The position numbers and the translations under genes were made by a program. 42,041 nucleotides of DNA from Blautia sp. An81 (GTDB taxonomy: Bacteria > Bacillota > Clostridia > Lachnospirales > Lachnospiraceae): NCBI RefSeq assembly GCF_002161285.1, contig NZ_NFHH01000031.1, forward strand, positions 1 through 42,041, given 5' to 3'. The number at the start of each line of letters is the position of its first letter. Position 1 is the stretch's first letter. Under the pieces are notes generated by a model. The model searched no databases, had not been told where the DNA came from, and saw only the letters and a list, made by a program, of their open reading frames with translations. Below, piece by piece: positions 9,528 to 42,041 of the stretch.

Positions 9528-9532
9528 CTATC

Positions 9533-10873: not shown

Positions 10874-10901
10874 TATATAAAATATTTCAAATCTATGTAA
10901 A
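10874..10901 (-). promoter_or_regulatory. Candidate promoter of the MFS transporter gene
   Basis: On the minus strand TTTACA (10896-10901) and TATATA (10874-10879) are 16 bp apart, about 50 bases before the start codon. The region is AT-rich, so chance matches are possible. Confidence 0.45.
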
Positions 10902-10999
10902 AAAATATACCTGTTCTGTAAAGTATCCCAAATATAATGAAAACGATATCGCTGCCTTATTATTTACAGAAAATACTGTTCTTTTCTCAGAATACGAAG

Positions 11000-11005
11000 T
11001 ATAAT
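11000..11005 (+). promoter_or_regulatory. Candidate -10 box of hppA
   Basis: A perfect TATAAT lies 47 bases before the hppA start. No good -35 is found at 16-18 bp upstream, so the promoter may be weak or factor-dependent. Confidence 0.4.
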
Positions 11006-11051
11006 ATAAACAAATGGCACATAGTTATAGTATCTTGAAAGGGGGTTTTTT

Positions 11052-13151: not shown

Positions 13152-13162
13152 GAAAATTTAAG

Positions 13163-13184
13163 AGGAGCTGCTGCGGCAGCTCCT
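13163..13184 (+). terminator. Hairpin after hppA, probable terminator with poor U-tract
   Basis: AGGAGCTGC pairs perfectly with GCAGCTCCT around a TGCG loop, 11 bases after the hppA stop codon. Only two Ts follow before an A run, so termination may be partial, or the hairpin may mainly protect the mRNA end. Confidence 0.5.
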
Positions 13185-13211
13185 TGAAAAATGTCCAGAA
13201 TATGATATACT
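13184..13211 (+). promoter_or_regulatory. Candidate promoter of the DUF2156-GNAT gene
   Basis: TTGAAA (13184-13189) and TATACT (13206-13211) are 16 bp apart, about 60 bases before the GTG start. The -35 box overlaps the last base of the preceding hairpin. Confidence 0.5.
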
Positions 13212-13272
13212 AATATGGACCAAAATTGGCCAGTTTCGGGCCGGATAAAAGAAAATATAAGGAGACAAAATC

Positions 13273-27206: not shown

Positions 27207-28256
27207 CTATATTCCGGCCAAAATTCCCATCAGAGGCATCATCACAGACAGAAGGATAAGGCCCACAACAATGGAAAGAATAGCCACCAGGGTGGGTTCA
27301 ATAATAGAAACGGCGTTTCCCATAGCATCATCCAGCTCGTCCTGACAGCGGGAGGCAATTTTTTCCATGGCGTCATCTATGGATCCAGTCCTGTCCCCTA
27401 CCATCAAAAGACGGGCCTCCATTCCGGTAAAGACCCCTGAGTGAGACAAAGCCTGAGCCAGAGGAGTTCCCTCCTCCAGGAGCTTTTTACACTGACTGAT
27501 CTTTTCACGGAACAGAGAATTTTCTGTAAGCTCTCCAGCCATATCCATTCCCTCTTCAGGAGTGAGACCGCTCTTCAGGACCAGAGACATACCGCTGGCA
27601 AATCTGCAGGAGGCTTTTTTATCTGAGAAATTCCTGGTAAAAGGCAGTCTGGAAAAGATCGCAGACGCCTGCTTTCGCCCAGAAGAAGTTTTGGCAAAGT
27701 AGAGGCAGAGAAGGGCCAGCAGTACCAGTACGGCCAGCAGTACCAGGGAATATCGGTTCAGAGCCTGGCCCATATCCAGAAGGCCTCTGGATAGACCCTG
27801 CATGCTCTGTCCCAGCTGGGCGTATACCTGTTCGAATACAGGAAGGACTCTGGTGATCAGCACCAGCACTACCAGCACCATCATACCGATCATGATACAG
27901 GGATAGGTAACGGCGCTTTTCAGAGCAGCGGCCAGATCCGATTCTCTTTCATAATGAACTGCCAGAGCTTCCATGACTTCGTCCAGACGTCCGGCCTGTT
28001 CTCCCAGCCGGACCATGTTCTGCATATATTGGGGGAATACCCCTGCGTCTTCCAGTCCCAGACTGAAAACCCCGGTGGAATTCAGTGTCTCCTGTATGGC
28101 AGACAGAATCTCACGCTCCTGGGAAGACGAGGTATCCTCCAGCATAATGGCAATTCCCTCCCCAGCTGAAATCCCGGCCTTCAGAACAGAAGAGATCTGA
28201 GAACAGAAAGAGGCCAGTTCAGCGGAAGAAAGGTTTTTTCCTGTAGTTTTCTTCAT
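27207..28256 (-). CDS. pilC: Type IV pilus / type II secretion platform protein (PilC/GspF family)
   Basis: 349-residue inner-membrane platform protein on which the PilT motor acts. Two GspF domains are visible: the first around LASFCSQISSVLKAGISAGEGIAIM..., the second around CRFASGMSLVLKSGLTPEEGMDMAGE. Three membrane spans are predicted, one ending in the C-terminal PLMGILAGI. Each domain has the expected cytoplasmic helical bundle. ATG 28256 follows AAAGGA. It is the second gene of the operon, 44 bases after the transglutaminase-like lipoprotein. Confidence 0.92.
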   Translation of the reverse strand: MKKTTGKNLSSAELASFCSQISSVLKAGISAGEGIAIMLEDTSSSQEREILSAIQETLNSTGVFSLGLEDAGVFPQYMQNMVRLGEQAGRLDEVMEALAVHYERESDLAAALKSAVTYPCIMIGMMVLVVLVLITRVLPVFEQVYAQLGQSMQGLSRGLLDMGQALNRYSLVLLAVLVLLALLCLYFAKTSSGRKQASAIFSRLPFTRNFSDKKASCRFASGMSLVLKSGLTPEEGMDMAGELTENSLFREKISQCKKLLEEGTPLAQALSHSGVFTGMEARLLMVGDRTGSIDDAMEKIASRCQDELDDAMGNAVSIIEPTLVAILSIVVGLILLSVMMPLMGILAGI

Positions 28257-28300
28257 TTTTCAACCATCCTTTCAAAAAAATCCGGCTTCCGGTATTGGAT

Positions 28301-29257
28301 TTACCGGGAATACATGACGGTATAATTAGAGCCGTCGCCGATATATTTCTTTACAGAGGAAGCTTTGTTTCCAGCAGCCAGTGTAGGATCGATGAGAGAC
28401 CAGCTTTCTCCGTCAAATTCAATGATATTTTCTACCCAGCCCTTTTCTTCAAGCCAGGTACTGATCCAGGCATGATATACTTCTCCGGAATAACCGATTT
28501 CCAGCTTGGTGGGGATTCCCTGAGAACGGAGCATGGCAGTCATCAGGGCCGCATAGTCAAAGCAGATCCCTTTGCCGCTTTCCAGAGTTTCATCTACATC
28601 GGGCAGATAACCGCTCTGGACTGTTTTTGCCTTTTCTTCATCATAAGTGACGTTTTTGATCACATAGTCGTAGACTGCTCCCACAGCCTCCAGTCCGTCC
28701 TGAGCTCCCTTAGTCAGACTGGCCGCCTGAGCAACTGTCTGGCTTTCACTTGTAAACCAGGTATACTGGTTGGGATAGAGGAAAGGAGAAAATTCATTGT
28801 CTATCTGGACTTCCACAGTATCCTTATACAGATTGGAATAAAGGTCGTCTTCCACATGCTCCCGGACATCCAGGGTATAGGTGCCGTTTCCAGCAGTCAG
28901 CGGCAGCGGGGCGAAGGTCTGGGAAGGCTTCAGGTCATAGGTGTAGCGGACCTGGTCGGGAGTTTCAATAAAAAATTTTACTTTGGCGGCATTCCCTACA
29001 TATCGGGCCATGAGATAGCCCTGGGAAATGTTCGATACATCTATTTCAATGGCTGAATTCCCCATAAGAACAGTACCAGGGGCCTCCGGGGTAAGAACCT
29101 TGGGCTGGCTGTCCCAGCTTTCCTCCTGAGAAGGAGCCGATGCTTTTTCTTTCTTATCCTGAGGCAAAGCTGAGGCGGACTGGCCGCTGCACCCTCCCAG
29201 AAGAAGAAAAATCGTGAGAAAACAGGAGATCAGCCGGAAATTCCGGGACTTTTTCAT
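28301..29257 (-). CDS. Transglutaminase-like domain lipoprotein
   Basis: 318 residues. A lipoprotein signal ends in LLLGGC with lipidated Cys23. A variable domain (about 60-165) is followed by a transglutaminase-like (papain-fold) domain with the full triad: Cys232 in GKGICFDYAAL, His262 in YHAWI and Asp290 in LIDPT. Such domains act as proteases or cross-linking enzymes on the cell surface. As first gene of the pilus operon it may process or cross-link surface protein, but this is inference. ATG 29257 follows GGAGGAGG on the minus strand. Confidence 0.9.
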   Translation of the reverse strand: MKKSRNFRLISCFLTIFLLLGGCSGQSASALPQDKKEKASAPSQEESWDSQPKVLTPEAPGTVLMGNSAIEIDVSNISQGYLMARYVGNAAKVKFFIETPDQVRYTYDLKPSQTFAPLPLTAGNGTYTLDVREHVEDDLYSNLYKDTVEVQIDNEFSPFLYPNQYTWFTSESQTVAQAASLTKGAQDGLEAVGAVYDYVIKNVTYDEEKAKTVQSGYLPDVDETLESGKGICFDYAALMTAMLRSQGIPTKLEIGYSGEVYHAWISTWLEEKGWVENIIEFDGESWSLIDPTLAAGNKASSVKKYIGDGSNYTVMYSR

Positions 29258-29406: not shown

Positions 29407-29416
29407 GGATTGGTAA
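29407..29416 (+). promoter_or_regulatory. Shared upstream motif GGATTGGTAA, copy 1
   Basis: This 10-mer lies 26 bases upstream of the -35 box of the BTAD regulator gene. ATTGG recurs ten bases on (ATTGGAAA), giving a short direct repeat. The identical 10-mer occurs at 31427-31436 upstream of the surface operon. Confidence 0.4.
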
Positions 29417-29442
29417 AAATTGGAAATTAGCAAAATGTCATA

Positions 29443-29471
29443 TTGACTTTTTTTAGCGATGAGAATAACAT
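29443..29471 (+). promoter_or_regulatory. Promoter of the BTAD regulator gene
   Basis: TTGACT (29443-29448) and TAACAT (29466-29471) are 17 bp apart. This places the transcript start near 29478, downstream of the ATG at 29459, and so supports ATG 29549 as the real start codon. Confidence 0.6.
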
Positions 29472-29548
29472 TAAGGATAGACGTTGGAGCCGAGTCTAGG
29501 CTTCAGTGTCATCAAATAGAGAGTCTTAAAGTAAATGGAGAGTTATTT

Positions 29549-30802
29549 ATGGAGGAAGGAAAAGCGGATTTAAAGGTTTATATGCTGGGGAAGTTTTCCA
29601 TGGTATATGGAGGCCGGCCTGTGACTTTTAAAAGGAACAGTGCTACAAAAGTACTGAAACTGCTGCAGATTCTTCTGCATTACAGCGGAGCCAGAGGCGG
29701 CATTTCCAGAAGTCAGCTTCTGGAAGACCTGTATGGAAGAGAAGAAGTTTCCGATGCAGCCAATAATCTCCGGGTCACGGTACACAGACTAAAGAAAATG
29801 CTGGCAGACACCATCCTGCCGGACTACGATTATATACAGATAGAAGATGGAATCTATAAATGGAGAAGTCCTATGCCTACCTGGGTAGATGTGATAGACT
29901 TCTCAGAATATGTAAAGAAAGGCGAAGCAGAGACCAATGAAGCAGAGAGATACCGGCTGTTCAGGCACGCCTGTCTCCTGTATCAGGGCGATTTTCTTCC
30001 GGAACTGTCCGGTGAAGACTGGGTGATCATTAACAGCGTTGCCTATAAGAAGCAGTTTTCTATAGCGCTGTCAGGGGTATGGGAGTATCTGAAGTATATA
30101 CAAAATTATGAGGAAATGCTGGAAATTTCTTCAGAGGCTGTACGGATCTATCCTTTCGATGAGTGGCAGGCTATGAAGATCGAAGCTCTGATGGGCCTGG
30201 ACCGTTATAAAGAAGCAATGGACTTTTATGAGGAAACGGCCAGAATGTTCTTCGAAGAACTGGGTATCAGCCCTTCTTCCAGGATCATGAAGCTCTTTGA
30301 CGAGATGAGCGCCAAAATGACCAGCAGCTATCAGACGGCAGGAGAGATAGAAAAGAAGCTGAAGGAAGAAGAGGAAAAATCCGGAGCCCTTTATATGAGC
30401 CTGCCCAGTTTCCGCGACAGCTACCGGCTTCTTCAGAGGATACTGGAAAGAAACGGTCAGTCAGCCTACCTTATGGTGATCACTATGGTAGACAGTAAGG
30501 GAAGACCTGCTGAAAGTACAAAGAAACAAGAAGAGTATTCGAAAGCGCTCCATGACGCAATCCAGAAAAGTCTTCGAAAAGGCGACTCTTTTACAAAATA
30601 CAGCACTTCTCAGTTTTTGATCCTTCTTGTGGGGACCAACAAGGAAAACTGCAGACTGATCTTTGAAAGGATTGTAAATAATTTTTCCATGGAGCACAGG
30701 ACCTGGAAAAACTATCTGAAATATTTTGCATCTTCGCTGGCTGAGGTAGAAAGCAACCAGTCGAGGATTCGGTTCCGAGGAAATGATTTTCACTGGAAAT
30801 AA
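29549..30802 (+). CDS. BTAD/SARP-like transcriptional regulator with degenerate GGDEF-like C-terminal domain
   Basis: 417 residues. Residues of about 8-105 form an OmpR-type winged helix (LKVYMLGKFSM...LLQILLHYSG...ISRSQLLEDLYG, NNLRVTVHRLKKML). Residues of about 115-255 form a bacterial transcriptional activation (TPR-like) domain. The last 130 residues look like a nucleotidyl-cyclase fold: GDSFTKYSTSQFLILLVG fits the beta-hairpin of GGDEF domains, with STSQF (352-356) in place of GGDEF. The catalytic residues are gone, so this part may dimerise or sense. ATG 29549 follows GGAGAG (29537-29542); ATG 29459 lies upstream of the predicted transcript start. It is the probable regulator of the downstream surface locus. 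Confidence 0.85.
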   Translation: MEEGKADLKVYMLGKFSMVYGGRPVTFKRNSATKVLKLLQILLHYSGARGGISRSQLLEDLYGREEVSDAANNLRVTVHRLKKMLADTILPDYDYIQIEDGIYKWRSPMPTWVDVIDFSEYVKKGEAETNEAERYRLFRHACLLYQGDFLPELSGEDWVIINSVAYKKQFSIALSGVWEYLKYIQNYEEMLEISSEAVRIYPFDEWQAMKIEALMGLDRYKEAMDFYEETARMFFEELGISPSSRIMKLFDEMSAKMTSSYQTAGEIEKKLKEEEEKSGALYMSLPSFRDSYRLLQRILERNGQSAYLMVITMVDSKGRPAESTKKQEEYSKALHDAIQKSLRKGDSFTKYSTSQFLILLVGTNKENCRLIFERIVNNFSMEHRTWKNYLKYFASSLAEVESNQSRIRFRGNDFHWK

Positions 30803-30823
30803 ACAGCAGGGAGGGGAGGAAGT

Positions 30824-31300
30824 GTGAAAAAAGGCAGACTGCTTTTAGAAAGAGAACTGCCGAATCTGGTATGTTTATGTATTGACAGGAACCAGGACGG
30901 TGAGATCGGAGGGAGAATTTACAGCCGTTACAGCAGGGAGCCGGAAAACTTCGATAATATAGTCCAGATGATCCGGAACCTGGAAGCTTTTTATAACCGT
31001 ATATCCTTTCCCCAGTCCTCTATGCAGCTGAGAGGCTTTGCAAAAGAAGAGGAACAGGATACTGGGAAAAGCGAAGACATCCGGAAGCTTTTAGATGCAG
31101 AGACTCTTCTTAATAATAAAGGAGAACATGTTACCTTCCTACTTGCCGTAAGATTCCGTCAGAACGCCACCTGGCAGGGAGAAATATACTGGGTGGAAGA
31201 AAAGAAAGAGGAAAAGTTCAAAAGCGTTCTGGAACTGCTGATACTGATAGATAATGCATTGTTTATGAAAAGCAGAGAAAAGACCAGAGAAAAATGGTGA
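30824..31300 (+). CDS. Unknown protein with NATWQG-type C-terminal domain (paralogue of the 65-residue protein)
   Basis: 158 residues, cytosolic by sequence: no signal peptide or span. Residues of about 107-150 (RFRQNATWQGEIYWVEE...FKSVLELLILIDNAL) match the small protein encoded at 31511, so the two share a domain. The N-terminal 100 residues are charged and carry nothing I recognise. GTG 30824 is the start, after GGGGAGGA (30812-30819). It lies 21 bases after the BTAD gene and probably in its transcript; a strong terminator follows. A regulatory partner of the BTAD protein is possible, but not shown. Confidence 0.8.
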   Translation: MKKGRLLLERELPNLVCLCIDRNQDGEIGGRIYSRYSREPENFDNIVQMIRNLEAFYNRISFPQSSMQLRGFAKEEEQDTGKSEDIRKLLDAETLLNNKGEHVTFLLAVRFRQNATWQGEIYWVEEKKEEKFKSVLELLILIDNALFMKSREKTREKW

Positions 31301-31330
31301 AAAAGAAGTATAAAAATAAAAGACTGTTCA

Positions 31331-31380
31331 AAAAACAGAGGAAACATTTGCTATGTGAAAAATGTTTCCTCTGTTTTTTT
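31331..31380 (+). terminator. Intrinsic terminator after the regulator pair
   Basis: A 19-bp inverted repeat whose core is ACAGAGGAAACATTT pairs 31331-31349 with 31360-31378 around a ten-base loop, and ends in a seven-T run. It separates the regulatory genes from the surface operon. Confidence 0.94.
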
Positions 31381-31426
31381 GTATGCAGAAATTTTTCAAA
31401 TAAATCATAAAATTCTATTCCTGAGC

Positions 31427-31436
31427 GGATTGGTAA
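31427..31436 (+). promoter_or_regulatory. Shared upstream motif GGATTGGTAA, copy 2
   Basis: Identical to the 10-mer at 29407-29416. A related ATGGGTAAT lies 19 bases further on (31448-31456). It is a candidate binding site for the BTAD regulator in front of the surface operon. Confidence 0.4.
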
Positions 31437-31466
31437 TGCTTTCAGTAATGGGTAATTTGCTAAAAT

Positions 31467-31486
31467 TTTTCTAAACATTTAGAAAA
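31467..31486. promoter_or_regulatory. Perfect 9-bp inverted repeat before the surface operon
   Basis: TTTTCTAAA-CA-TTTAGAAAA lies eight bases before the ribosome binding site of the first gene. It may be an operator or a leader hairpin. No T-run follows, so it is not a terminator. Confidence 0.5.
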
Positions 31487-31510
31487 TATGATAAAGGAGG
31501 TGCGGAGAAT

Positions 31511-31708
31511 ATGAAACAACGATATCAGGAAACATTTCTGCTGAACATACAGAACCATCAAAACGCCACCTGGCAGGGGACGGTAACCTGGGTGGATCGA
31601 CGACAGCGGCATAATTTCCGCAGTACTCTGGAATTGATCAAGCTGATAGAAAGTGCTTTTGATGTATATGAAAAAAAGGAAGGAGAAGAGACAGAACATG
31701 AAGATTAA
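31511..31708 (+). CDS. 65-residue NATWQG-domain protein
   Basis: Small cytosolic protein consisting almost only of the domain shared with the C-terminus of the 30824 gene product: HQNATWQGTVTWV, then HNFRSTLELIKLIESAF. The ribosome binding site AAAGGAGGTG (31494-31503) is near perfect. The gene overlaps the large surface protein start by 11 bases, so the two are translationally coupled. I do not know this family. Its position first in the operon suggests a chaperone-like or regulatory role for the surface protein, but that is inference. Confidence 0.82.
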   Translation: MKQRYQETFLLNIQNHQNATWQGTVTWVDRRQRHNFRSTLELIKLIESAFDVYEKKEGEETEHED

Positions 31709-34700
31709 AAAATCAAAAAGGCTGTTAGCGTTGATTCTGTGCATGGCACTTGTTCTGGGAACAAATACCTTTACTATGGCTGCCGATGCCAGCCAGTCCC
31801 AGGAAGAAATTGTTCAGGATGAGAGTACCTCCCAGGAAGGAACTGGGACCGAAGAGGTTCAGACACAGGCTCTGGAGGAGACGGGAGAGACAGTACCGGA
31901 ACCGACTGAAGAGCAAACGGAAGAACCTGGACAAGAAGAAACTCAGGGGCAGACAGAAGGAACTTCAGGGACAGAGACTGAAGAGATGATTACAGAAGAA
32001 CCTGGGACAGAAGAGAATACGCCAGAAACTGTACCGGAGGAAAACGGTGAGGAAGTGACGGGAGAGACGCCTACGGACATCACTGAGCCTACAGAGGGAC
32101 TTGCTGAAAGTACAGGAAGTGCCGAGAATACGGGGACAGAGAATAGTGAGAATCTTGAGGATATGACTGGAGATGAGGCCGCAGGGAATGTGGAGGAAAC
32201 TCAGGATACAAATACCCTGGAGGAACAGGAGTGGTCTCAACAGGTGGGAGATACCTTAGTAAAGGTGAAAGCACCTAAAGGAACACTTCCAGAAGAAGCA
32301 GTCCTTTTTGTGAGTGAAATAACAGCTCAGGAAGATATGGACAAAATAGAGGAAGCAGTGGAAGAAAAAGCCATAGAAGAAAAATTCTCTATTGAAAACA
32401 TTCTTGCCTATGATATCAAGTTTATGGTGGGAGACACCGAGGTACAGCCAGAAGGAACCGTACAGGTAACTGTAGATGCTCCGGAAATTGCCAGTGGACA
32501 GGAAGCTTCTGTACTACATCTTAAGGATGACACGACAGTGGAAGACATGAATGGGGCTGTCGATACAGAAGGTCAGGTAGTATTTGATACAACTCATTTT
32601 TCAACGTATGTCATTGTGAACGAGGGAGATGAAGCGGTTACAATCAAGATTCAACATCTAAACCTTGATGGCGAAAAAATATATTCAGATGATGATCTTA
32701 GCCTTAATGTTGGAGAAACTATTAATAACTATGCAAAGGCAACGAATTGGGAGGTTGACAGGGTTGTTGTAAATGAGAAAGAGATTTCAAAAGATGAATT
32801 TAGTATGATTCAGGTTACGCAGGACAGTGAGATTAAGATCTACTATAAGCCCAAGGAATCAGAAATCTCAGGACAAGTTAAATTTTATGATTACACGGTA
32901 AAAGCAGGGCAAACCAGGTCTTGGGGAGAGGAAACCTATTATTCCTTTAATATGTTGGGAGATGAACCGAACGATCGCGAAGAAAAATTAACAGCAGGTA
33001 CGGCAGATCAAAATTATGAGAATTATAAATATCACGTTTATACAGACGGGGCTGATGCAAATGCTTGGACTGGCAACCCGGGTGATGGAGAAGATGTTAA
33101 AGTTGTACATGGTCTTTTAAAAGGGGTAACTGATGGCGGAACTGGAGATGTGGAGTTTAACTATCCAGAACCGGGATTCTTTGAAGATAGCGATGCTACA
33201 CAATGGATTAGAGGAGAAAGAAGATATTTAAGACATTTTTATAATAATTACACTCTGAATTTTGACCAGGAAGGTGATACATATACATTAGTATCTGTAA
33301 ATGACCGATGGGGTACTCAGGTTGCCACCGCAGGTTCAAATTTCTATCCTTTAGATAATGTTAGCGTCGACTATGAAAGCGCTAATACAACGGGAGATGA
33401 TGGAAAGAAACATAATCTTTATTTTGGAATGCGTTATGATGTGACATTTAAGATAGGAGATTATATAGGACCTCTAAATTACAATTTCTCTGGTGATGAC
33501 GATTTGTGGGTTGTTTTAGATGGCGAAACAGTTGTAATCGATTTGGGTGGTATTCACAATGCAGCTGAAGCGAGTGTAGACTTATGGGATTATATAGTTG
33601 GTCCAGATGGTAGCCCGGAACAACTTTCAGAGGCGCAGAAGAACCAAGAGCATAGGCTTACTGTTTTATATATGGAGCGTGGGGCTGGAAAATCTAACTG
33701 TTCTATGAACTTTACACTTCCTTCTGCAGAGATTGTTGAAGTGTCAAAAGTTCCTATGGCAGATTTTCAACTTACAAAGGTTAATAGTGAAGGTATCGGA
33801 CTTCCAGGAGCAGAGTTTGAATTAGTAAACCGGGAAACAGGGACAACTCAAACAGCTATTTCTAACGAAAGTGGAAATGTTAGTTTTACAAAACTGAGAG
33901 AGGGTACATATACATTAACGGAGACAAAGGCACCAAATGATTATATACTTCCGTCTTCGAATACCTGGGTTATAAAAGTGACAGCAAAAGATGACGAAAC
34001 AGCGGAAGCCAAGATGTATTTATCTGACGGGGAAACAGAATACACACCTGGAGAGAATGGATACCAGATTGTCAATTATACCCAGCAGGAAGAGATAGAA
34101 AGGAACTTAGTATATGATAAATGGGTAACAGATGATAAGCAAAATGGGAGAGAATATACCATTCACCTTACAGCCGATTCCTTATCCCATACAGAGGGAA
34201 CTGAGGGGCAGAATGCAAGTATTGTATTGGTGTTAGATCGATCAGGTTCCATGGGTGAGAGCGGTAGTATGGGGAAACTACGAGATGCGGCAAAGGCATT
34301 TGTAGACAAAGCTTTAGAATTATCACCAAATAGTGAGATTGCTTTGGTGAGTTTTTCTACCAATAGCTCTAAAGGTGAGTTTTTTACGCTTAGCCAGGAG
34401 TATGAGTCCGGTTGGGGGCGTTCGCAATTAGGAGCTGAGAAAATAAAAAATAGTATTGATGACTTAAATGCAGGTGGTTCTACATATTTGAATGAAGCGT
34501 TAGAAGATGCCTATGAATTGATAAGTGAAGATGCACAGAATAGTGCTAAGTATGTAATAACCTTTACAGACGGTGCTCCTGGATATAGTGGGGAAGGAGG
34601 AGCGACTGCGGAAGATGCCTATGAACAGGCAAAGCTGATTAAGGGAATTGCAACTCACTATACCATAGCATATGGAAATGCTACAAAAGATTCGTTTGAC

Positions 34701-36236
34701 TGGGATGACCCAGATGATGAACGGGAAAAAGAGGTAGAAATCTCCTGTGCAGCTTATCTGAATCGTTTAGCTACAGAAGGAAAAGCTTATACGAGTAGTG
34801 AGACAGATGATCTTACCGATCTTTTCGAGGAAATTGCTGGTGATGTAGCCGAAGGCTTGAGTATTCAGGCAGATGAGATTGTGGATGTCATAGATGCCAG
34901 ATTTGAGCTTACAGAAGAGACAAAAGATGCTCTAAGGACAAAAAATGAGGAACTCAAAAGCAAGAATGATCTTCAGGAAGATTGTATAATCATTGATGAT
35001 GATAATGAGGATGGTACTACCATAATTACTTGGAAAGGTCCTGCAGCTTTAATAGCGTCTAAAGGTGAGGACAATTCTCATGGCTGGGCATATGACTTAA
35101 AGATTAAAGCCAAAGATGATTTCATCGGAGGAAATATGATTCCTACCAACGGGGCTGGATCAGGCATAGACTTGGGAGACAAGGGCAAAGCAGAATTCCC
35201 CAAGCCTACGGTTAATGTAAAACTCTTGAATTTGAAAATGGCGGATTCCGAAAATAAGGTTTTTTTAGGAGATACTATCAATCCAGTGAATACGTCAGAT
35301 ATAGAGGGAATTAGTCAGAAACTCTTAGAAACGTTAAAAATGGATGGAGATAAAACTATTCCTAATTTGAACGTGGATAACTTAAGATGGGGTCCAGTGG
35401 AGGGAGAACCTAATAAGATGACAGCCACTGTAGACTATAGTTATCAGGAAAACCCGAATGACGTTATCGGAACCTTCACCTTTACTTTCGATGCTACAAA
35501 GGGAAACCTAGAAGAACATGTGATAGATAAAGTAGGAGAGAGTATTGAAGAGAACGTTGAAGAGTATGTGATGACCGTGGAGTATACATCAAAAACTGTT
35601 CAGGAACGTCAGAACCAGATTAACGGAGATCTAACGTATAGAGAACCAGTAGGAACTGAGTTGACAGCTAATAATAATGATAGACCTATTACAGTTTCTA
35701 CTGATGGTACGTATGGAATCAAAGTGGTGGCAGGAAAAGTTGAGGTAACGAAACATATTGATCCAACTGAGGTGAAAGGTTATCAGGGAGAACCCATATT
35801 TACCTTTAAATTAACCCGGACTTATGAGGGTAAGACACAGTCCTGGTATGAAAGCGTTAAATTTTCGGAAGAAGATATTAAAGCAGGGACAGGTACCAAG
35901 ACAGTAACCTTTGAAAATCTTCCTAAAGGTACTTATACCGTAGAAGAGGTAAATGGTGGATCCTTACAGTTTAAACAGCATGGCGATGTGGCTTATAGTG
36001 TAAACACAGACGATACATTAAGATGTATAGTCAGAAACGGATTGCTTATTGGTCTAGAAAAGGATGGAGACAGGGACCGTATTGACACCAGAAACGGCTT
36101 GGTAAGCGTTAACAATAAACATTCTGGAAACAGTACAGACACAGACAATGATATTATTGTGAACCGTTTCAAGATAGAAAACGGAAAGGTTGTCATTACT
36201 CCGGATGAGTTAACTGGAACCAATGAAAATGAATAA
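31698..36236 (+). CDS. Large multidomain secreted adhesin: fibro-slime, SpaA-like and VWA domains
   Basis: 1512 residues. A Sec signal peptide (about 1-29, ending TMAADA) is followed by an acidic Glu/Thr/Pro/Gly-rich stalk (about 30-175). Next come a beta-rich domain (about 180-310), a fibro-slime/PA14-like domain with FSGDDDLW at 597-604, and a SpaA-like Cna-B domain (about 688-770: LTKVNSEGIGLPGAEFEL). A VWA domain has an intact metal site DRSGS at 847-851, and a second Cna-B-like domain lies at about 1347-1440. The tail (NRFKIENGKVVITPDEL...) has no LPXTG motif and no membrane span, so it must be held by partners. Base use from about 32.63 kb on looks more AT-rich than in the stalk. ATG 31698 is preceded by AAGGAGAAGAG. 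Likely a ligand-binding tip of a surface structure. Confidence 0.88.
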   Translation: MKIKKSKRLLALILCMALVLGTNTFTMAADASQSQEEIVQDESTSQEGTGTEEVQTQALEETGETVPEPTEEQTEEPGQEETQGQTEGTSGTETEEMITEEPGTEENTPETVPEENGEEVTGETPTDITEPTEGLAESTGSAENTGTENSENLEDMTGDEAAGNVEETQDTNTLEEQEWSQQVGDTLVKVKAPKGTLPEEAVLFVSEITAQEDMDKIEEAVEEKAIEEKFSIENILAYDIKFMVGDTEVQPEGTVQVTVDAPEIASGQEASVLHLKDDTTVEDMNGAVDTEGQVVFDTTHFSTYVIVNEGDEAVTIKIQHLNLDGEKIYSDDDLSLNVGETINNYAKATNWEVDRVVVNEKEISKDEFSMIQVTQDSEIKIYYKPKESEISGQVKFYDYTVKAGQTRSWGEETYYSFNMLGDEPNDREEKLTAGTADQNYENYKYHVYTDGADANAWTGNPGDGEDVKVVHGLLKGVTDGGTGDVEFNYPEPGFFEDSDATQWIRGERRYLRHFYNNYTLNFDQEGDTYTLVSVNDRWGTQVATAGSNFYPLDNVSVDYESANTTGDDGKKHNLYFGMRYDVTFKIGDYIGPLNYNFSGDDDLWVVLDGETVVIDLGGIHNAAEASVDLWDYIVGPDGSPEQLSEAQKNQEHRLTVLYMERGAGKSNCSMNFTLPSAEIVEVSKVPMADFQLTKVNSEGIGLPGAEFELVNRETGTTQTAISNESGNVSFTKLREGTYTLTETKAPNDYILPSSNTWVIKVTAKDDETAEAKMYLSDGETEYTPGENGYQIVNYTQQEEIERNLVYDKWVTDDKQNGREYTIHLTADSLSHTEGTEGQNASIVLVLDRSGSMGESGSMGKLRDAAKAFVDKALELSPNSEIALVSFSTNSSKGEFFTLSQEYESGWGRSQLGAEKIKNSIDDLNAGGSTYLNEALEDAYELISEDAQNSAKYVITFTDGAPGYSGEGGATAEDAYEQAKLIKGIATHYTIAYGNATKDSFDWDDPDDEREKEVEISCAAYLNRLATEGKAYTSSETDDLTDLFEEIAGDVAEGLSIQADEIVDVIDARFELTEETKDALRTKNEELKSKNDLQEDCIIIDDDNEDGTTIITWKGPAALIASKGEDNSHGWAYDLKIKAKDDFIGGNMIPTNGAGSGIDLGDKGKAEFPKPTVNVKLLNLKMADSENKVFLGDTINPVNTSDIEGISQKLLETLKMDGDKTIPNLNVDNLRWGPVEGEPNKMTATVDYSYQENPNDVIGTFTFTFDATKGNLEEHVIDKVGESIEENVEEYVMTVEYTSKTVQERQNQINGDLTYREPVGTELTANNNDRPITVSTDGTYGIKVVAGKVEVTKHIDPTEVKGYQGEPIFTFKLTRTYEGKTQSWYESVKFSEEDIKAGTGTKTVTFENLPKGTYTVEEVNGGSLQFKQHGDVAYSVNTDDTLRCIVRNGLLIGLEKDGDRDRIDTRNGLVSVNNKHSGNSTDTDNDIIVNRFKIENGKVVITPDELTGTNENE

Positions 36237-36250
36237 GGAGGGAGAAGAGA

Positions 36251-36829
36251 ATGAGAAAATTAAAGACAGTATGGAATTCCCATAAGAAAATTTTGCTTGC
36301 AGTCTGCCTCCTTGTTGTAATTGGTGCCGGTGCAACCATTGCTTACTACAGCGCATATACCCAGGCATTAACGAATACCTTTTCCGGCAGTAATATTGAC
36401 ACTGAGATTGAGGAGGAAACAGGGATCAACGGAAAGAAAGCTCCTTCCATAGAGAACACGGGGGCTTCCGAATGTATCGTAAGAATGCGAGTTAACATCT
36501 CACCGGAAAATGCAGGGGTTGTATTAAACTATGATACAACAAATTGGAAAGCTGGCGGAGATGGATTCTACTATTATCAAGGTGTGCTGCCTGTAGATGG
36601 AAAAACCGAGGCTCTATTTACACAGGTTACTCTAAATAACGGAGTTCCTGGCACAGTATCGACGTTAGAGGAATGGACAGCATTTTTAAAGAAATATCCT
36701 GATTTCTCTATAACTCTCTACCAGGAAGCTTCTCCAGCGTCTGTAGATGGTGAATCTGCATTAGTAAATGGAGCATATAACCAGGATGCAGCTATGAAAG
36801 TATGGAATAAATTTAAAGGTACGAACTAA
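36251..36829 (+). CDS. TasA/camelysin-like SipW-dependent secreted protein A
   Basis: 192 residues. The leader KKILLAVCLLVVIGAGATIAYYSAYTQALTNTF is the SipW-dependent type: hydrophobic core, G-A-T-x-A-Y/F, then a short polar segment. The mature part contains the family-typical PSIENTGASECIVRMRVNI strand pair and a long insert (about 95-180). It probably belongs to the fibre subunit superfamily of TasA/CalY. It starts 14 bases after the adhesin and 41 bases before the first signal peptidase, which presumably cleaves it. ATG 36251 follows AAGGAGGGAG. It is the most divergent of the four paralogues in this locus. Confidence 0.85.
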   Translation: MRKLKTVWNSHKKILLAVCLLVVIGAGATIAYYSAYTQALTNTFSGSNIDTEIEEETGINGKKAPSIENTGASECIVRMRVNISPENAGVVLNYDTTNWKAGGDGFYYYQGVLPVDGKTEALFTQVTLNNGVPGTVSTLEEWTAFLKKYPDFSITLYQEASPASVDGESALVNGAYNQDAAMKVWNKFKGTN

Positions 36830-36870
36830 GTTCTTGGCATACAGGATGGGGCAGAAGGGAGAAGAACCAT

Positions 36871-37365
36871 ATGTTTCGGAAAATCTGTAATTTTCTTCTG
36901 GGAGTTCTGATAATCGGATTACTGGTAATTGCGGGATTACTGCTTGTGCCGAGGCTGCTGGGTATGCAAAGCCTGGCAGTCCTCAGCGGCAGTATGGAGC
37001 CAGAGATTTCTGTGGGTTCCATTGTATATGCAGAACCGGTGGATCCCGAGTCACTGGAAGTGGGAGATGTTATCACATATCAGTTGGGAGAAGACACCAG
37101 AGTGACCCATAGGATTACAGAAATCAACGAGGAAGAACAGACATTTACAACCAAAGGTGATGCAAACGACAACGTAGACGGCTCACCGGTTCCCTACTCC
37201 AATGTAGTGGGGCAAGTAAAATATCATGTGCCGTATCTTGGATACATCAGCATATATATCAAGACTCCTTTGGGTATAGCAGTGGGATGCGGTATTTTAA
37301 TTGTTATCATACTTCTTAACTTCCTGCCGGATATTTTCAGCAGTGAGGAAGAAAAAAAGAAATAA
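36871..37365 (+). CDS. sipW: SipW-type signal peptidase I, copy 1
   Basis: 164 residues with one N-terminal and one C-terminal membrane span. The catalytic Ser41 is in LSGSMEPEISVGS. The general base is His80 in VTHRI instead of the Lys of ordinary bacterial enzymes, which marks the ER-type/SipW branch. KGDANDNVD is the third conserved box. Such enzymes process TasA-like proteins. Here it sits between TasA-like genes A and B. ATG 36871 is preceded by AAGGGAGAAG. Confidence 0.93.
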   Translation: MFRKICNFLLGVLIIGLLVIAGLLLVPRLLGMQSLAVLSGSMEPEISVGSIVYAEPVDPESLEVGDVITYQLGEDTRVTHRITEINEEEQTFTTKGDANDNVDGSPVPYSNVVGQVKYHVPYLGYISIYIKTPLGIAVGCGILIVIILLNFLPDIFSSEEEKKK

Positions 37366-37413
37366 TTGGCCGAAAGGCCATTTATAAAAAATAAAAGCAA
37401 GGAGAATAAGGTT

Positions 37414-38097
37414 ATGAAAAACAAAAAAGTATTAAGCATGGTTGCAGCATTAGGTTTAGTTGCAGTTGTAGGAATTGGCGGTACTCTGGCATACTTCAAC
37501 GACAGTACAAATGAATTGACAAACACCTTTACTATGGCACAACAGGGAATTGAAATGGAATTATGGGAGTCAGGTGTTAAAACCGATGGAAATGGAGGAT
37601 ATGACCAGGATCTTGATGCAGCTAAAGTGGTAGCAGGTGAAGATGGTGCTGGAAATCAGTATAAAGATCTTCAGCCAGGAGCTGATGTGTATAAAGACCC
37701 AACTATTACAATCAAAGCTAATTCTGTAGACTGTTATGTATATGCAAGCATTAAGACATATAATAATGCAAAAAATACAATTACTGCTATAAGTGATTCA
37801 TGGAAAGCACTAGACGGAATAGAAACAGCCGGAAGTGACGCTGATGGAGCATATACAATTAAATATTATGTATATTGGGATAAAACGGCAAATACTCCCC
37901 AAGTGGTAAGAAAGAGTGATGATCCTCAGGATTTGATCGCTTTGTTTAAAAATGTTGATATTGCAACCGATTTGACAGATGCAACTAAGGAGTTAAGTGA
38001 TATTGTTGTCAAATCTTCAGCCGTACAGGCTTCTAACATTGAGATTGCTGATGCTCAGGCAGAAGGCCTTAAATTATTAGGTTATGTGGCACAGTAA
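37414..38097 (+). CDS. TasA/camelysin-like SipW-dependent secreted protein B
   Basis: 227 residues. The SipW-dependent leader reads LSMVAALGLVAVVGIGGTLAYFNDSTNELTNTFTMA, with the GTLAYF hallmark. The mature part has KDPTITIKANSVDCYVYASIKT, also found in protein C, and a Tyr/Asp-rich later section. The role is presumably a fibre or matrix subunit. ATG 37414 is chosen over an upstream alternative because AAGGAGAATAAGG lies just ahead. Codon use is AT-leaning and simple (many GCA, GAT, AAA), suggesting high expression. Confidence 0.88.
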   Translation: MKNKKVLSMVAALGLVAVVGIGGTLAYFNDSTNELTNTFTMAQQGIEMELWESGVKTDGNGGYDQDLDAAKVVAGEDGAGNQYKDLQPGADVYKDPTITIKANSVDCYVYASIKTYNNAKNTITAISDSWKALDGIETAGSDADGAYTIKYYVYWDKTANTPQVVRKSDDPQDLIALFKNVDIATDLTDATKELSDIVVKSSAVQASNIEIADAQAEGLKLLGYVAQ

Positions 38098-38136
38098 ACT
38101 AAAAATAAGTTGTATTTTTAAGAGGAGAATAAAGTT

Positions 38137-38739
38137 ATGAGAAATAAAAGAATTATCGCATTAGCAGGTACTGTAGCATTAGTAGGTGTTGTAGGAGTTG
38201 GAGCAACACTGGCTTACTTCACAGATACAGATAACACATTAAACACTGTAACAATGGGGCATGTGGATATTGACTTAGACGAGCCCATTTTCAGTGCAGA
38301 AAATGAAAACAATACAATCGAGAATGTAACACCAAACCAGACCATTACAAAAGACCCAACTATTACAGTAAAAGCTGATTCCGAAAGCTGCTATTTAAGA
38401 GCTAAAGTTCAGATTAACGGCTTAGAGCCTAACTGGGATGCTGAGTTATTAGAAGGAATCAATATTGATGATTCTCTTTGGGTATTAAGTGATGATGGAT
38501 ATTATTACTACCAGTACGCTGTAGGAAAAGCAGGCGTAGATCAGAAATTTAAACTTTTTGATACAGTGACTATTCCTGAAGAATGGGGAAATGAAATGAC
38601 CGATAAAACTTTTACAATCGGTATTACCGCAGAAGCTATCCAGGCAGATAACTTTACACCAGAAGAAGCAAATGGTGTAATCACAGGATGGGTTAATTCT
38701 GAAGGAGAAGATATCACTGCCGAGACATACAATGAATAA
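38137..38739 (+). CDS. TasA/camelysin-like SipW-dependent secreted protein C
   Basis: 200 residues. The leader has GVVGVGATLAYFTDTDNTLNTVTMG, the textbook SipW-dependent pattern. KDPTITVKADSESCYLRAKVQI is homologous to the same segment of protein B. It ends in an acidic tail. AAGAGGAG (38120-38127) precedes ATG 38137. B and C are recognisable paralogues over the leader and the PTITxKA segment. It lies 36 bases before the second signal peptidase. Confidence 0.88.
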   Translation: MRNKRIIALAGTVALVGVVGVGATLAYFTDTDNTLNTVTMGHVDIDLDEPIFSAENENNTIENVTPNQTITKDPTITVKADSESCYLRAKVQINGLEPNWDAELLEGINIDDSLWVLSDDGYYYYQYAVGKAGVDQKFKLFDTVTIPEEWGNEMTDKTFTIGITAEAIQADNFTPEEANGVITGWVNSEGEDITAETYNE

Positions 38740-38775
38740 GTAATAAAACTGTGATACCAGGGAGGAACCGTACAT

Positions 38776-39273
38776 ATGCTGTCAAAAATTTTAAATCTTA
38801 TGGGAATTCTTTTGATGGCAGCGGTCATTCTGGTGGCCTTACCCCTTACTGTGCCTAAGCTGTTGGGATTCCAGATTTACGGAATCCTGACAGAGAGCAT
38901 GGAGCCTGAGTTTTCAAAGGGTTGTGTAGTCTATGTTAAGCCTGCCAGCCCGGAAGAGATTCAGGTTGGGGATGTAATAACATATCGTATGGGTTCAGGT
39001 ACAGATGTGACCACGACCCATAGAGTAACAGAAATTGACACTGAAAAACAGCAGTTTATCACCAAAGGAGATGCCAACACCTCAGCAGATATAGAACCAA
39101 TACGGTTTTCTCAGCTTGAGGGAAGGGTAGTAGGTATGCTTCCCTGGCTTGGCAGATTTTCCCAAATCCTTCGTACAGGAATTGGAACCACAGCTTGTAT
39201 AGCGGTGTTCCTTCTGGCTTTTATACTGTGGAAGGCAGCGGAAAAGATAAAGTTAAAGGAGAGTAGAAAGTGA
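38776..39273 (+). CDS. sipW: SipW-type signal peptidase I, copy 2
   Basis: 165 residues, clearly homologous to copy 1. Ser41 is in LTESMEPEFSKG, His82 in TTHRVTEI, and the KGDANTSAD box follows; the family has one span at each end. The two copies differ throughout, so this is old duplication or separate acquisition rather than recent copying. The gene overlaps the next TasA-like gene by four bases (GTGA). GGGAGG (38760-38765) precedes ATG 38776. Confidence 0.93.
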   Translation: MLSKILNLMGILLMAAVILVALPLTVPKLLGFQIYGILTESMEPEFSKGCVVYVKPASPEEIQVGDVITYRMGSGTDVTTTHRVTEIDTEKQQFITKGDANTSADIEPIRFSQLEGRVVGMLPWLGRFSQILRTGIGTTACIAVFLLAFILWKAAEKIKLKESRK

Positions 39274-39899
39274 AGAAGAAATATATGCTTATGGGCGTGG
39301 CAGCCGCTCTCATTACAACAACAATCATAGGTGGTTCTTTAGCAGCTATTCAGGTAAATGGAGAAGATGTTCGGCAGGATATCAATACCAGATCGTTAAA
39401 CATTGAACTGACAGGCAGCGGAGCTGTGGAAGGTAATCTTTATCTGGAAAATGCCATGCCCGGTGGTGTGATTGACAAGGATATCAAGATTGAAAATACA
39501 GCGGATACTCCGCTTTACGCCCGGGTAACGATCCGGAAGTACTGGGGTGACTATGGGGCAGACAGCAGTGAACTGACCAAAGACTACAGTAAGGATACTG
39601 ATAAGATTTCTTTGGAAGTCAATGGAGAATGGCTGGAAGATGAGAATGCCAGAGATGGTGGTGAGACTTCCGTATATTATTACCGCAATCCCATTGAACC
39701 TGGAACGGAACCTGTGGATATCCTGAAATCTTTGAAGATTGAAGCCGATCTTGATAACTCGTATGCAGATAAAGGAATCGGTCTGGAAGTTGAAGTAGAC
39801 GCAGTGCAGACTTATGCCGCGGAAGATGCTATGCTTTCAGAATGGGGTATCGGGGCAGATATAGATGAAAACGGCACGATTATTGCCATTGAAGAATAA
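39270..39899 (+). CDS. TasA/camelysin-like secreted protein D
   Basis: 209 residues. Its leader (MGVAAALITTTIIGGSLAAIQVNGEDVR) is shorter and lacks the LAYF hallmark. The mature segment DKDIKIENTADTPLYARVTIRKYW matches the PTITxKAxxxCYxR segment of B and C, without the Cys. GTG 39270 overlaps the preceding signal peptidase stop, so it is translationally coupled to copy 2 and is its likely substrate. A predicted acidic C-terminus ends in AIEE. Confidence 0.82.
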   Translation: MKKKYMLMGVAAALITTTIIGGSLAAIQVNGEDVRQDINTRSLNIELTGSGAVEGNLYLENAMPGGVIDKDIKIENTADTPLYARVTIRKYWGDYGADSSELTKDYSKDTDKISLEVNGEWLEDENARDGGETSVYYYRNPIEPGTEPVDILKSLKIEADLDNSYADKGIGLEVEVDAVQTYAAEDAMLSEWGIGADIDENGTIIAIEE

Positions 39900-39924
39900 C
39901 CGTATCAGAAAAGAGGAGGACAGC

Positions 39925-40704
39925 ATGAAAAAGTTAAGAACATTTATCATAATAACTGCGTTGCTGCTGCTGAGTATGAATACGGTTGTTTTTGCAGCAG
40001 GAACACTTAATGTCTCCTTCAATGGAGAGGCGATACAGTATCAGGGAATGGAAAATTTCGCAGAAAACTTTTCCGATATGTATCCGGGAGAGAGCCGTAC
40101 CCAGGAAATAGTCATTCAGAATAATGATGACAGGGATGTGGAGTTTTACCTTCAGCCTTCAGTGCTCCAGTCTTTTGAAGAGACAGTTAATGCCAGCGGG
40201 GCTGCTTATAATATTTCCCTGAAGCTCCATACAAAGGATGATACATACACCCTTTTCGGAGGAACTGAGGAAGATAACAGCGCCAGGATCGGCGGAGATG
40301 AGGTAGGTCTCGGCAATCTGAATGAGGCCATTGACGGCTGGATTTTCCTTACAACCCTTCAGCCTCAGGAAACAGCTTCCTTAGAAATGATGGTTGCTTT
40401 GGACGGAGAGTCCAACACCAATGATTATCAGAATGCATTAGGAACCTTTCAGTTTGAATTCGGAGTAGATTTTCCATCACCGGCGCCTCAGGCAGAACCA
40501 GAGATCATTCCCCAGTATGTGAAGGGTGACCCAGAATATGTTACCAGGACTGTGAAAGGTGATGATGTAGTCACTCGTGTTGTAAGAAGAGTAAAGACAG
40601 GCGATACAGCTCCGATCTTAGCTCTTTCAGCAGCAGGAATTGCAGCATTGGGAATCATTATTGTAGTTGGAAAGAAGAAAAGCAGAAAGGCGGATGACCT
40701 ATGA
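39925..40704 (+). CDS. Secreted protein E with degenerate sorting signal (KTGD) and C-terminal span
   Basis: 259 residues. A conventional Sec signal peptide ends at VVFAAG (about residues 20-26). The mature part (NVSFNGEAIQYQGMENFAENFSDMYPGESRTQEIVIQNNDD) again looks like a TasA/CalY-related beta domain. The C-terminus has KTGDTAP at 224-230, a hydrophobic span and a basic tail (GKKKSRK). That is the layout of a sortase signal, but the LP of LPxTG is replaced (RRVKTGD). It may be a membrane-held or sortase-anchored terminal subunit. ATG 39925 follows AAGAGGAGGA; the gene overlaps the next by four bases. Confidence 0.83.
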   Translation: MKKLRTFIIITALLLLSMNTVVFAAGTLNVSFNGEAIQYQGMENFAENFSDMYPGESRTQEIVIQNNDDRDVEFYLQPSVLQSFEETVNASGAAYNISLKLHTKDDTYTLFGGTEEDNSARIGGDEVGLGNLNEAIDGWIFLTTLQPQETASLEMMVALDGESNTNDYQNALGTFQFEFGVDFPSPAPQAEPEIIPQYVKGDPEYVTRTVKGDDVVTRVVRRVKTGDTAPILALSAAGIAALGIIIVVGKKKSRKADDL

Positions 40705-41849
40705 AAAACAACAAATTCGTATGGGGCAGCAAAGCAGCAGCCTGTTTTGCCATATCTGCATTTCTTGCAGCAGCGCCTCTGGAGATTTATGCTGCAGAGC
40801 AGCAAACATATAATATTACTTTCAGCCCGGGAAAAGTTGGAGAGTTTACAGCAGATTTCATTGCGGAATGTGAAGCAGCCGGAGGCTCTGTCAGCGAAAG
40901 AACAGGAAGTGTAAAACTGAAAGTCCCGGCAGGGTCCTCAGTACAGCTTCCAAATCCCGCTGATGTCCAGATAAAAGAGGAGTATCAGGGCAGATATGTT
41001 GTAAACACAGACGATTCTTTCCTGACAGGCGAAAGCATCACAGCCGATCAGAGTGAGTCATATGTAGTAGATTATGCAGCGTTAGTAGAAGGCGTTACAT
41101 ATCGTATAGAATTTATTGATGCCGAAAGTGGAGAAGAAGTTGCAGCCCCGATCACTGCCCAGGGAAATGTTGATCAGGTAGTTCCCTATGTGGCAGAGAC
41201 AATTGATGGCTATACTCTTTCCGGTGACAGTTCTCAGACAATGACCCTGACCAGCGGAGAGAACACCATGACCTTTACTTATACGAGAAATGTAGAGGAG
41301 GTACCGCCTCAGACACAGATTATTGAGACACCGGGTGATACGATCACACGGACGGAAACAGTACCGGGAGATAATGTAACAATTACAGAGTATCAGGGAG
41401 TTGGAACAGCAACAGGCGGTACAGGAACTGGAACTGCAGGAACAACCACTGGAACTGGTACTGCCGGACAGACAACAGCAGGTACTGGAACAGCAGCCGG
41501 AGCCGGAGATAATACAACCGGAACAGGTACTGCAGCGCAGCCGGGTGCGGATCAGAATGGAACCGCTGCAGATGACGGAACTGGCACACAGACAGACGAA
41601 GGCACTACTGTAATCGGAGACGAGGAAGTGCCGTTAGGACAGACAGATCTGGATGAACAGGATGAAAACCAGGATACCGAGCAAGGAACCACGGAGATAG
41701 AGGATGAAGATGTGCCTCAGGGAGATATTAATGTAGATGAAGGCAGCCAGGATAAAGGCATGAATCCTGCTCCCCTTGTTGCAGCAGGTGTTGTAGTAGT
41801 CGTTGCAGCAGCCGGTGCGATCTATTATTTCATTAGACGCAGAAAATAA
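40701..41849 (+). CDS. Secreted protein F: MucBP-like domain, Thr/Gly-rich stalk, C-terminal anchor
   Basis: 382 residues. A signal peptide ends near AAPLEIYAA (about residue 31). Residues of about 35-130 form a domain I cannot name. Residues of about 130-195 (YRIEFIDAESGEEV...TMTFTYT) resemble MucBP/MBG-type mucin-binding repeats. A low-complexity Gly/Thr/Ala stalk (about 232-300) is followed by an acidic region holding two copies of a similar motif (GDEEVPLG and EDEDVPQG). The end is a membrane span (LVAAGVVVVVAAAGAIYYF) and RRRK, without LPXTG. The last gene of the operon. ATG 40701 overlaps the stop of gene E (ATGA). Confidence 0.83.
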   Translation: MKNNKFVWGSKAAACFAISAFLAAAPLEIYAAEQQTYNITFSPGKVGEFTADFIAECEAAGGSVSERTGSVKLKVPAGSSVQLPNPADVQIKEEYQGRYVVNTDDSFLTGESITADQSESYVVDYAALVEGVTYRIEFIDAESGEEVAAPITAQGNVDQVVPYVAETIDGYTLSGDSSQTMTLTSGENTMTFTYTRNVEEVPPQTQIIETPGDTITRTETVPGDNVTITEYQGVGTATGGTGTGTAGTTTGTGTAGQTTAGTGTAAGAGDNTTGTGTAAQPGADQNGTAADDGTGTQTDEGTTVIGDEEVPLGQTDLDEQDENQDTEQGTTEIEDEDVPQGDINVDEGSQDKGMNPAPLVAAGVVVVVAAAGAIYYFIRRRK

Positions 41850-41872
41850 TCAACTGCAATGAAAAAGTAATT

Positions 41873-41919
41873 AAGCCGTTAAAACGATGTACGAGAAGTA
41901 CTGGTTTTAACGGCTTTTT
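41873..41919 (+). terminator. Intrinsic terminator of the surface operon
   Basis: AAGCCGTTAAAAC (41873-41885) pairs with GTTTTAACGGCTT (41904-41916), and an inner GTAC/GTAC pair shortens the loop. A run of Ts follows. No later gene is visible in the remaining 120 bases, only AT-rich sequence with an isolated TATAAT-like box (41982-41987). Confidence 0.93.
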
Positions 41920-42041
41920 ACTAGAGGGCGTAAAATTTTCTGTGTCTATGGGAAAAATTCTTCTTTGATAAGAAACAGATATGTATAATTGTCTTGTCGG
42001 AACTTCTGCTTTTTGGCTGTCGAATTACTTATCTGTTTATA

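Follow-up and report, generated by a model that had tools for sequence, protein, structure and literature searches.

A predicted surface-appendage locus of gut Clostridia with TasA-like proteins, a large adhesin and its own regulator

Introduction

What would four TasA-like proteins, two SipW-type signal peptidases and a large adhesin build when they are encoded side by side in a gut commensal, and what controls them? The locus that raises this question lies on contig NZ_NFHH01000031.1 of Blautia sp. An81 (RefSeq assembly GCF_002161285.1). The window analysed here is that whole contig of 42,041 nucleotides, and sequence downstream of the last gene of the locus, anc2, is covered only to position 42041, where the contig ends. 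A preliminary description had proposed a self-contained locus for a SipW-dependent surface fibre, and its theme of SipW-dependent TasA-like proteins accompanied by a large adhesin and a regulator of their own proved right. We consider it probable that the locus is an operon for a surface appendage, regulated and conserved among gut Clostridia, comprising a TasA/SipW-type fibre, a large adhesin and a local activator resembling the Streptomyces antibiotic regulatory proteins (SARP).

Results

Layout and transcription units

All twelve consecutive plus-strand open reading frames claimed in the preliminary description are present at 29549-41849. Their contents are as it stated: a regulator of the BTAD type and a pair of small paralogues, then a fibro-slime/VWA protein of 1512 residues, four TasA/camelysin-like proteins, two SipW-type peptidases and two anchored proteins. 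Stretches resembling ribosome-binding sites were seen by eye before the twelve frames. The start first given for the region, 29407, lies upstream of the gene; reg most likely begins at the ATG at 29549, with another in-frame ATG at 29459. The features are as follows.

29549..30802, plus strand: reg, activator with winged helix and BTAD domain and a degenerate GGDEF-like C-terminal domain
30824..31300, plus strand: smlL, small two-domain protein of the WQG family (alignments and AlphaFold2 model)
31330..31379, plus strand: intrinsic terminator 3' of reg-smlL, perfect 20-bp hairpin and T run, folding z -6.52
31433..31450, plus strand: proposed reg operator, direct repeat GTAATG-N6-GTAATG
31461..31466, plus strand: proposed -10 box TAAAAT, 16 bp from the start of the second repeat
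31511..31708, plus strand: smlS, single-domain WQG small protein, 11-nt overlap with the adhesin start
31698..36236, plus strand: adh, 1512-residue secreted protein with fibro-slime, SpaA and VWA domains, without C-terminal anchor
36251..36829, plus strand: bsa1, BsaA/TasA-like (TIGR04090 39.6 bits, under the cut-off of 60)
36871..37365, plus strand: sip1, SipW-type signal peptidase of the first clade (TIGR02228 113.8 bits, tree)
37414..38097, plus strand: bsa2, TasA-like with SipW-dependent signal (TIGR04088 31.1 bits, cut-off 19)
38137..38739, plus strand: bsa3, camelysin/TasA family (PF12389 23.3 bits, TIGR04088 32.0, both above cut-off)
38776..39273, plus strand: sip2, SipW-type signal peptidase of the second clade (TIGR02228 98.8 bits, tree)
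39270..39899, plus strand: bsa4, TasA-like (profile comparison with the bsa3 family, E 8.8e-23, probability 99.5)
39925..40704, plus strand: anc1, secreted, KTGD sorting-type tail, possibly TasA-like fold
40701..41849, plus strand: anc2, MucBP-domain protein with a membrane helix at the C-terminus
41873..41919, plus strand: operon terminator (folding of 41866-41925, z -6.57)

The hairpin at 31330-31379 parts reg and smlL from smlS-anc2, and there are therefore probably two transcription units, reg-smlL and smlS-anc2. From smlS through anc2 (31511 to 41849) the genes are closely packed, with intergenic gaps of -11 to +48 nt; these short gaps and the hairpins at both ends fit a predicted single operon.

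Conservation of gene order

Gene order was read from maps of fetched stretches around related loci, numbered here with the prefix L. The window order adh-bsa1-sip1-bsa2-bsa3-sip2-bsa4-anc1-anc2 recurs in three of them: L039 from the Blautia genome G004, with reg and the adhesin each in two frames and one additional bsa2-like copy; L069 from Candidatus Ruminococcus intestinipullorum, without smlS and with one additional bsa; and L074 from Fournierella, where neither reg nor smlS was recognised and the protein in the adhesin's place is of another type, with Listeria-Bacteroides repeats. L045/L060 (Diplocloster) and L047 have the window order with insertions (L060 stops within anc1), and L182 has it minus sip2. 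In L181 and L183, bsa4-anc1-anc2 stand before the regulator and adh-bsa1-sip1-bsa2-bsa3 after it, and the run of adh, bsa1, sip1 and two bsa genes is also found in L181, L182, L183 and L184. Judged from these maps, the gene order is conserved across several genera of gut Clostridia. A grouping peculiar to this strain would have spoken against the preliminary description, but several genera carry these genes together and in matching order.

Adhesin, TasA-like proteins and signal peptidases

In Pfam and NCBIfam scans, the 1512-residue adh was over the cut-offs for fibro-slime (TIGR02148), SpaA and VWA. Only bsa3 reached the camelysin/TasA family PF12389 (23.3 against 22.5 bits), and the SipW-dependent signal model TIGR04088, with a cut-off of 19, was exceeded in bsa2 (31.1) and bsa3 (32.0), fell short in bsa1 (14.4) and had no match in bsa4. 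Relatives of bsa1 hold the same place in L039, L069, L074 and L181-L184. Of 250 genomes in the family, 36 had a match to the bsa3 profile (E <= 1e-10, the window's own genome G000 included), a count that may take in other bsa types.

Both peptidases exceeded the TIGR02228 cut-off of 51.85 bits (sip1 113.8, sip2 98.8) and, at 104.1 and 75.5 bits, remained below the 190 bits of the Bacillus SipW equivalog NF046067. A tree of 25 rows, with four duplicate loci dropped and L181-L187 left out, has one main split with support 98/97, the two branches at its midpoint root being a single unrooted edge. On one side, the first-place peptidases group with the single peptidases of L107 and L110 and with the L065/L075 ones (the L065 row labelled 'second of two' is a first-type peptidase from a tandem copy). 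The other holds the second-place peptidases, the single one of L067 and five from sortase-pilus loci, and the second peptidase of L047 forms a long branch. With sip1 and sip2 separated by this supported split and each keeping its place in the gene order, the two are, by this tree, old paralogues with constant neighbours.

We also weighed whether the TasA-like proteins make no single fibre, the operon yielding instead a number of individual secreted proteins, for matrix or adhesion, with only a promoter and two peptidases in common. The four bsa paralogues are quite unlike each other, the modules swap places in L181 and L183, and the protein in the adhesin's place varies by locus, as the Listeria-Bacteroides repeats of L074 illustrate. 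The adh-bsa1-sip1-two bsa order is nevertheless maintained over several genera, and the short gaps and terminal hairpins match a single unit; we regard separate proteins as unlikely, while leaving them an appreciable chance.

Anchors, modules and sister pilus loci

The preliminary description spoke of two anchored proteins. Of these, anc1 alone carries a sortase-type KTGD tail; anc2 ends in a membrane helix without a sorting tail, and adh is without an anchor. All 12 anc1 members that reach the C-terminus end in [KQ]TGD, a membrane helix and a basic tail (11 KTGD, 1 QTGD), while 3 further members are cut off before it. Profile comparison linked anc1 weakly to the family of bsa4 (E 8.6e-7, probability 91.5, signal peptide included), and anc1 possibly has a TasA-like fold; anc2 scored 26.4 bits for MucBP against a cut-off of 23.

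None of the genome's eight sortase matches lies on the window contig, no class C sortase was found at the locus, and Pfam and NCBIfam scans revealed no LPXTG-type major pilin in 29-42 kb. 'Self-contained' was thus too strong a term for a locus that encodes no sortase despite the sorting-type tail of anc1, and it is weakened further by the sharing of bsa4-anc1-anc2 with sortase-pilus loci. The locus consists of two modules, adhesin-bsa1-sip1-bsa2-bsa3 and sip2-bsa4-anc1-anc2. In L055 the order is adhesin, SpaH-type pilin, two class C sortases, SpaA-like protein, two bsa, anc1, anc2 and sip, and profiles found a similar sortase-pilus set in L037/L073, L063, L088, L091 and L121 (the tails of most of these being cut by the fetched length) and in L139 on C2 of the same genome as the window. 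L139 (124900-144813) is a second appendage locus, in which a fibro-slime adhesin at the contig end is followed by pilin, two sortases, bsa, bsa, anc1, anc2 and sip. Given these sister sortase-pilus gene sets, bsa4-anc1-anc2 with a sip2-type peptidase is, as far as gene content tells, a module common to two assembly types.

Could the window locus then be a relic or variant of a sortase pilus, whose SpaA-bearing adhesin is polymerised by the class C sortases encoded at C2, with bsa and anc proteins as accessories? Sister loci do combine a related adhesin, a SpaH-type pilin and two class C sortases with bsa, anc1, anc2 and sip, the own genome has such a locus with two sortases at C2, and anc1 bears its KTGD tail. 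On the other hand, BsaA polymers of C. perfringens are independent of the neighbouring sortase, according to the available part of PMC7395162. The window contig is without a sortase, no LPXTG-type major pilin was found in 29-42 kb, and the window adhesin lacks the C-terminal LPSAGG of the adhesins in L036-L038 and L055, making a sortase pilus distinctly improbable here. That the bsa proteins are camelysin-like metallopeptidases (PF12389 is named Peptidase_M73) and not structural subunits is most improbable, even with bsa3 over the PF12389 cut-off, since that family, which we take to include the fibre protein TasA as well, had matches in Bacillus subtilis alone among 14 control genomes. TasA and its homolog CalY, moreover, form filaments in B. 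cereus in the accessible portion of PMC13082335.

The regulator and the small WQG proteins

By its BTAD domain (56.9 bits, cut-off 22.1) and winged helix, reg belongs with the SARP/BTAD regulators. The Trans_reg_C match of the window protein is just below cut-off (25.5 against 26.2 bits), and this domain was found at E <= 0.01 in all 11 regulator members scanned, the window's included. A GGDEF match (E 0.002) is also below cut-off, and the GG[DE]EF active-site motif of diguanylate cyclases was present in 0 of 70 regulators. Relatives of reg were found at E <= 0.001 in 43 of 116 genomes, the own included, with many of the weaker matches spanning the C-terminal part alone.

The locus adjoins a type II secretion F-like gene and a transglutaminase-like gene on the minus strand (27207-29257). 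The transglutaminase-like gene is the divergent neighbour of reg also in L040, L041, L044, L088, L091, L097 and L135, and in this setting related regulators carry differing cargoes downstream: the TasA type in the window, the sortase type in L088 and, 2978 bp away, in L091, and a 2144-residue protein in L097. Elsewhere in the window, a T-box leader (RF00230, 99.9 bits) lies at 9256-9514 on the minus strand.

Alignments of 55 members revealed one short domain with an invariant W-Q-G that smlS shares with the C-terminal half of smlL. The other half of smlL, at the N-terminus, resembles a degenerate copy with the same predicted bbba layout, and the AlphaFold2 model of whole smlL has two bbba repeats (pLDDT 86.1, pTM 0.80). 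A Pfam scan of the 55 members gave two families only, with a single weak match each, and NCBIfam gave no match for smlS and one at E 0.097 for smlL; among those scanned, the sml proteins thus appear as a family without a Pfam or NCBIfam match. A scan of named genomes found 162 sml relatives, reduced to 79 distinct loci, and 25 of 299 sampled genomes of the phylum had matches, the own included. The sml genes mostly come after the regulator, often directly ahead of a big surface gene: reg lies within 2.5 kb of 70 of the 103 sml genes having 2 kb upstream, and 54 of 104 with a downstream gene (duplicate loci included) precede one of at least 450 residues, 41 of these within 75 bp. In L111, a 3210-residue open frame (3756-13385) follows reg-sml and reaches the stretch end, with 13 matches to FctA (Spy0128-like isopeptide).

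A candidate operator upstream of smlS

Aligning the gap 5' of smlS uncovered GTAATG repeats. The window repeat at 31433-31450 reads GTAATGCTTTCAGTAATG, its GTAATG copies lie 12 bp apart, and a -10-like box stands 16 bp from the start of the second copy. Across 1.65 Mb of loci there are 15 exact copies of GTAATG-N6-GTAATG (13 without two duplicate loci); 12 of these sites lie 45-204 bp upstream of an sml start, and the other three sit at contig ends directly after reg or smlL. In the own genome the short repeat pattern is found twice and the version with CTTT once, at 31433.

The repeat sequence varies by lineage (GTAATG, TGAGATAA, GCGTGAT, GTAACGC and others). With the sequence left free and 7 of 8 positions matching, a 12-bp-period repeat was present in 39 of 65 sml upstream regions versus 58 of 392 controls, counts that, like those below, include related loci and are not independent. 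It was also present in 26 of 41 reg/sml-to-sml gaps, where 20 shuffles gave 4.4 on average and 8 at most. Requiring TAnnnT 15-18 bp further on left 33/65 sml upstream regions versus 6/341 controls, and each other period from 8 to 17 gave 0-3 of 65. As described in the available text of PMC10972967, SARP activators bind direct repeats of heptamers that overlap the -35 region and are classically arranged in units of 11 bp. Direct repeats preceding the target's -10 box were likewise found at sml promoters, though not in L181-L187. We propose that the sml-promoter repeat is a SARP-like activator site and the candidate operator of reg.

Two sequences from genome G016, L149 and L164 (the end of C67 and the start of C91), share 141 bp at a GTAATG promoter and then diverge; the split is an assembly branch at the promoter. 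The draft contigs L040, L041, L043 and L044 likewise stop just past reg or smlL.

Recombinases in related loci

A query with the recombinase of L138, which is over the Phage_integrase cut-off, matched relatives in L047 and L110. In L138, L047 and L110 the recombinase is followed by near-perfect inverted repeats (28/29, 20/21 and 27/28) with spacers of 191, 227 and 347 bp; the window locus has no such pair. L138 (own genome, C54, 1809-3253) encodes a tyrosine recombinase, and its 29-bp repeats precede an sml gene and a 380-residue open frame resembling the adhesin N-terminus by eye. This is possibly an invertible promoter serving a second appendage locus; the sortase-pilus part of that locus may lie on C2. 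In L047 (2-1128) and L110 (7165-8546) the recombinase and repeats lie directly upstream of the BTAD regulator, which may itself be phase variable there.

Discussion

We infer joint assembly of the encoded proteins as one appendage. In the mechanism we propose, reg would bind the repeats through its winged helix and BTAD domain in place of a -35 box and turn the operon on, perhaps when its degenerate GGDEF-like domain meets a ligand, or via the sml proteins. sip1 would mature bsa1-bsa3 and sip2 bsa4, and the mature TasA-like subunits would assemble into extracellular polymers through strand exchange, in the manner of TasA. The resulting fibre would carry or display the large fibro-slime/VWA protein, with anc1, fixed to the wall by a sortase encoded elsewhere, and membrane-held anc2 at its base, and might serve gut adhesion or matrix building. 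There are precedents for such polymers in the available parts of the sources, with C. perfringens BsaA forming SipW-dependent filamentous polymers (PMC7395162) and TasA polymerising via an N-terminal donor strand (PMC9674648).

Several results weigh against this reading. Only co-location ties the adhesin to the fibre. PF12389 scored 16.7 bits in bsa2, below cut-off, and did not match bsa1 or bsa4; all four bsa proteins (39.6, 23.0, 29.0 and 37.4 bits for bsa1-bsa4) were below the 60 bits of TIGR04090 (BsaA); and the bsa3, bsa4 and anc1 profiles matched no solved TasA structure by sequence. A sip2-like protein was absent from 11 of 20 Blautia genomes and present in 9 (E <= 1e-20, G000 included; other sip types may be counted here), and the stretches fetched for L182 and L183 showed no peptidase of the sip2 type. 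As for the operator, periods 9, 10, 11, 13 and 20 are also raised without the -10 condition (10-15 of 41, shuffle means near 5), and the 15-18 bp offset was picked after its peak had been seen. The window's own repeat, 6/6 in the core, fails the 7-of-8 rule and for that reason is not counted among the 33. The element occurred in 0 of 16 upstream regions of the seven more distant loci L181-L187, and the regulators found among these share 23-28% identity with reg.

Of the known systems, the tapA-sipW-tasA operon of Bacillus subtilis likewise places a SipW-type peptidase beside TasA-like proteins, the extracellular fibre being proposed here. In contrast to that operon, the window has two SipW, four TasA-like proteins, a large fibro-slime/VWA adhesin and a sorting-type anchor, with a BTAD activator instead of SinR/SlrR. 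No TapA model was among the family matches of window proteins, and no direct comparison with the TapA sequence was made; anc1 could take TapA's role. The sipW-bsaABCRSD operon of C. perfringens is also clostridial, with SipW, BsaA-family proteins and its own regulator, but the available text of PMC7395162 mentions neither a large adhesin nor a second SipW. Its adjacent two-component system has no counterpart among the twelve genes, where the regulator is of the BTAD type. TasA/CalY/CapP of Bacillus cereus (PMC13082335, in the part available) offers several co-assembling, sortase-independent TasA-like paralogues; regulator and adhesin differ, and CapP was not recognised in the window, with no CapP-profile search made. 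Sortase-assembled SpaA pili share SpaA-domain proteins with the window locus and, in the sister loci, a related bsa4-anc1-anc2-sip module and regulator/sml genes, yet the window locus is without a class C sortase or LPXTG major pilin. The SARP regulators of Streptomyces, as the accessible part of PMC10972967 presents them, share the winged helix, BTAD domain and direct-repeat site before the -10 box, and differ in the classical period of 11 bp, here 12. The regulator described here further differs in its surface-appendage neighbours in Clostridia, its degenerate GGDEF-like tail and its linked WQG small proteins.

We lean slightly towards a broader reading as well, in which the WQG small proteins and a SARP-like BTAD regulator whose GGDEF domain is dead would form a regulatory cassette across gut Clostridia. 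Through lineage-specific 12-bp-period repeats it would command exchangeable appendage modules (TasA/SipW fibres, sortase pili and giant adhesins), some of them also flipped on and off by a tyrosine recombinase, the window locus being one cargo. We found no description of a locus of this kind in gut commensals such as Blautia in the literature searched, which was mainly non-subscription and judged by titles and abstract openings.

Bacillus and C. perfringens are known to make fibres of the TasA type; the locus described here supplies a parts list and a candidate operator open to testing. In addition, the pairing of regulator and small protein marks many appendage loci across gut Clostridia, other assembly chemistries included.

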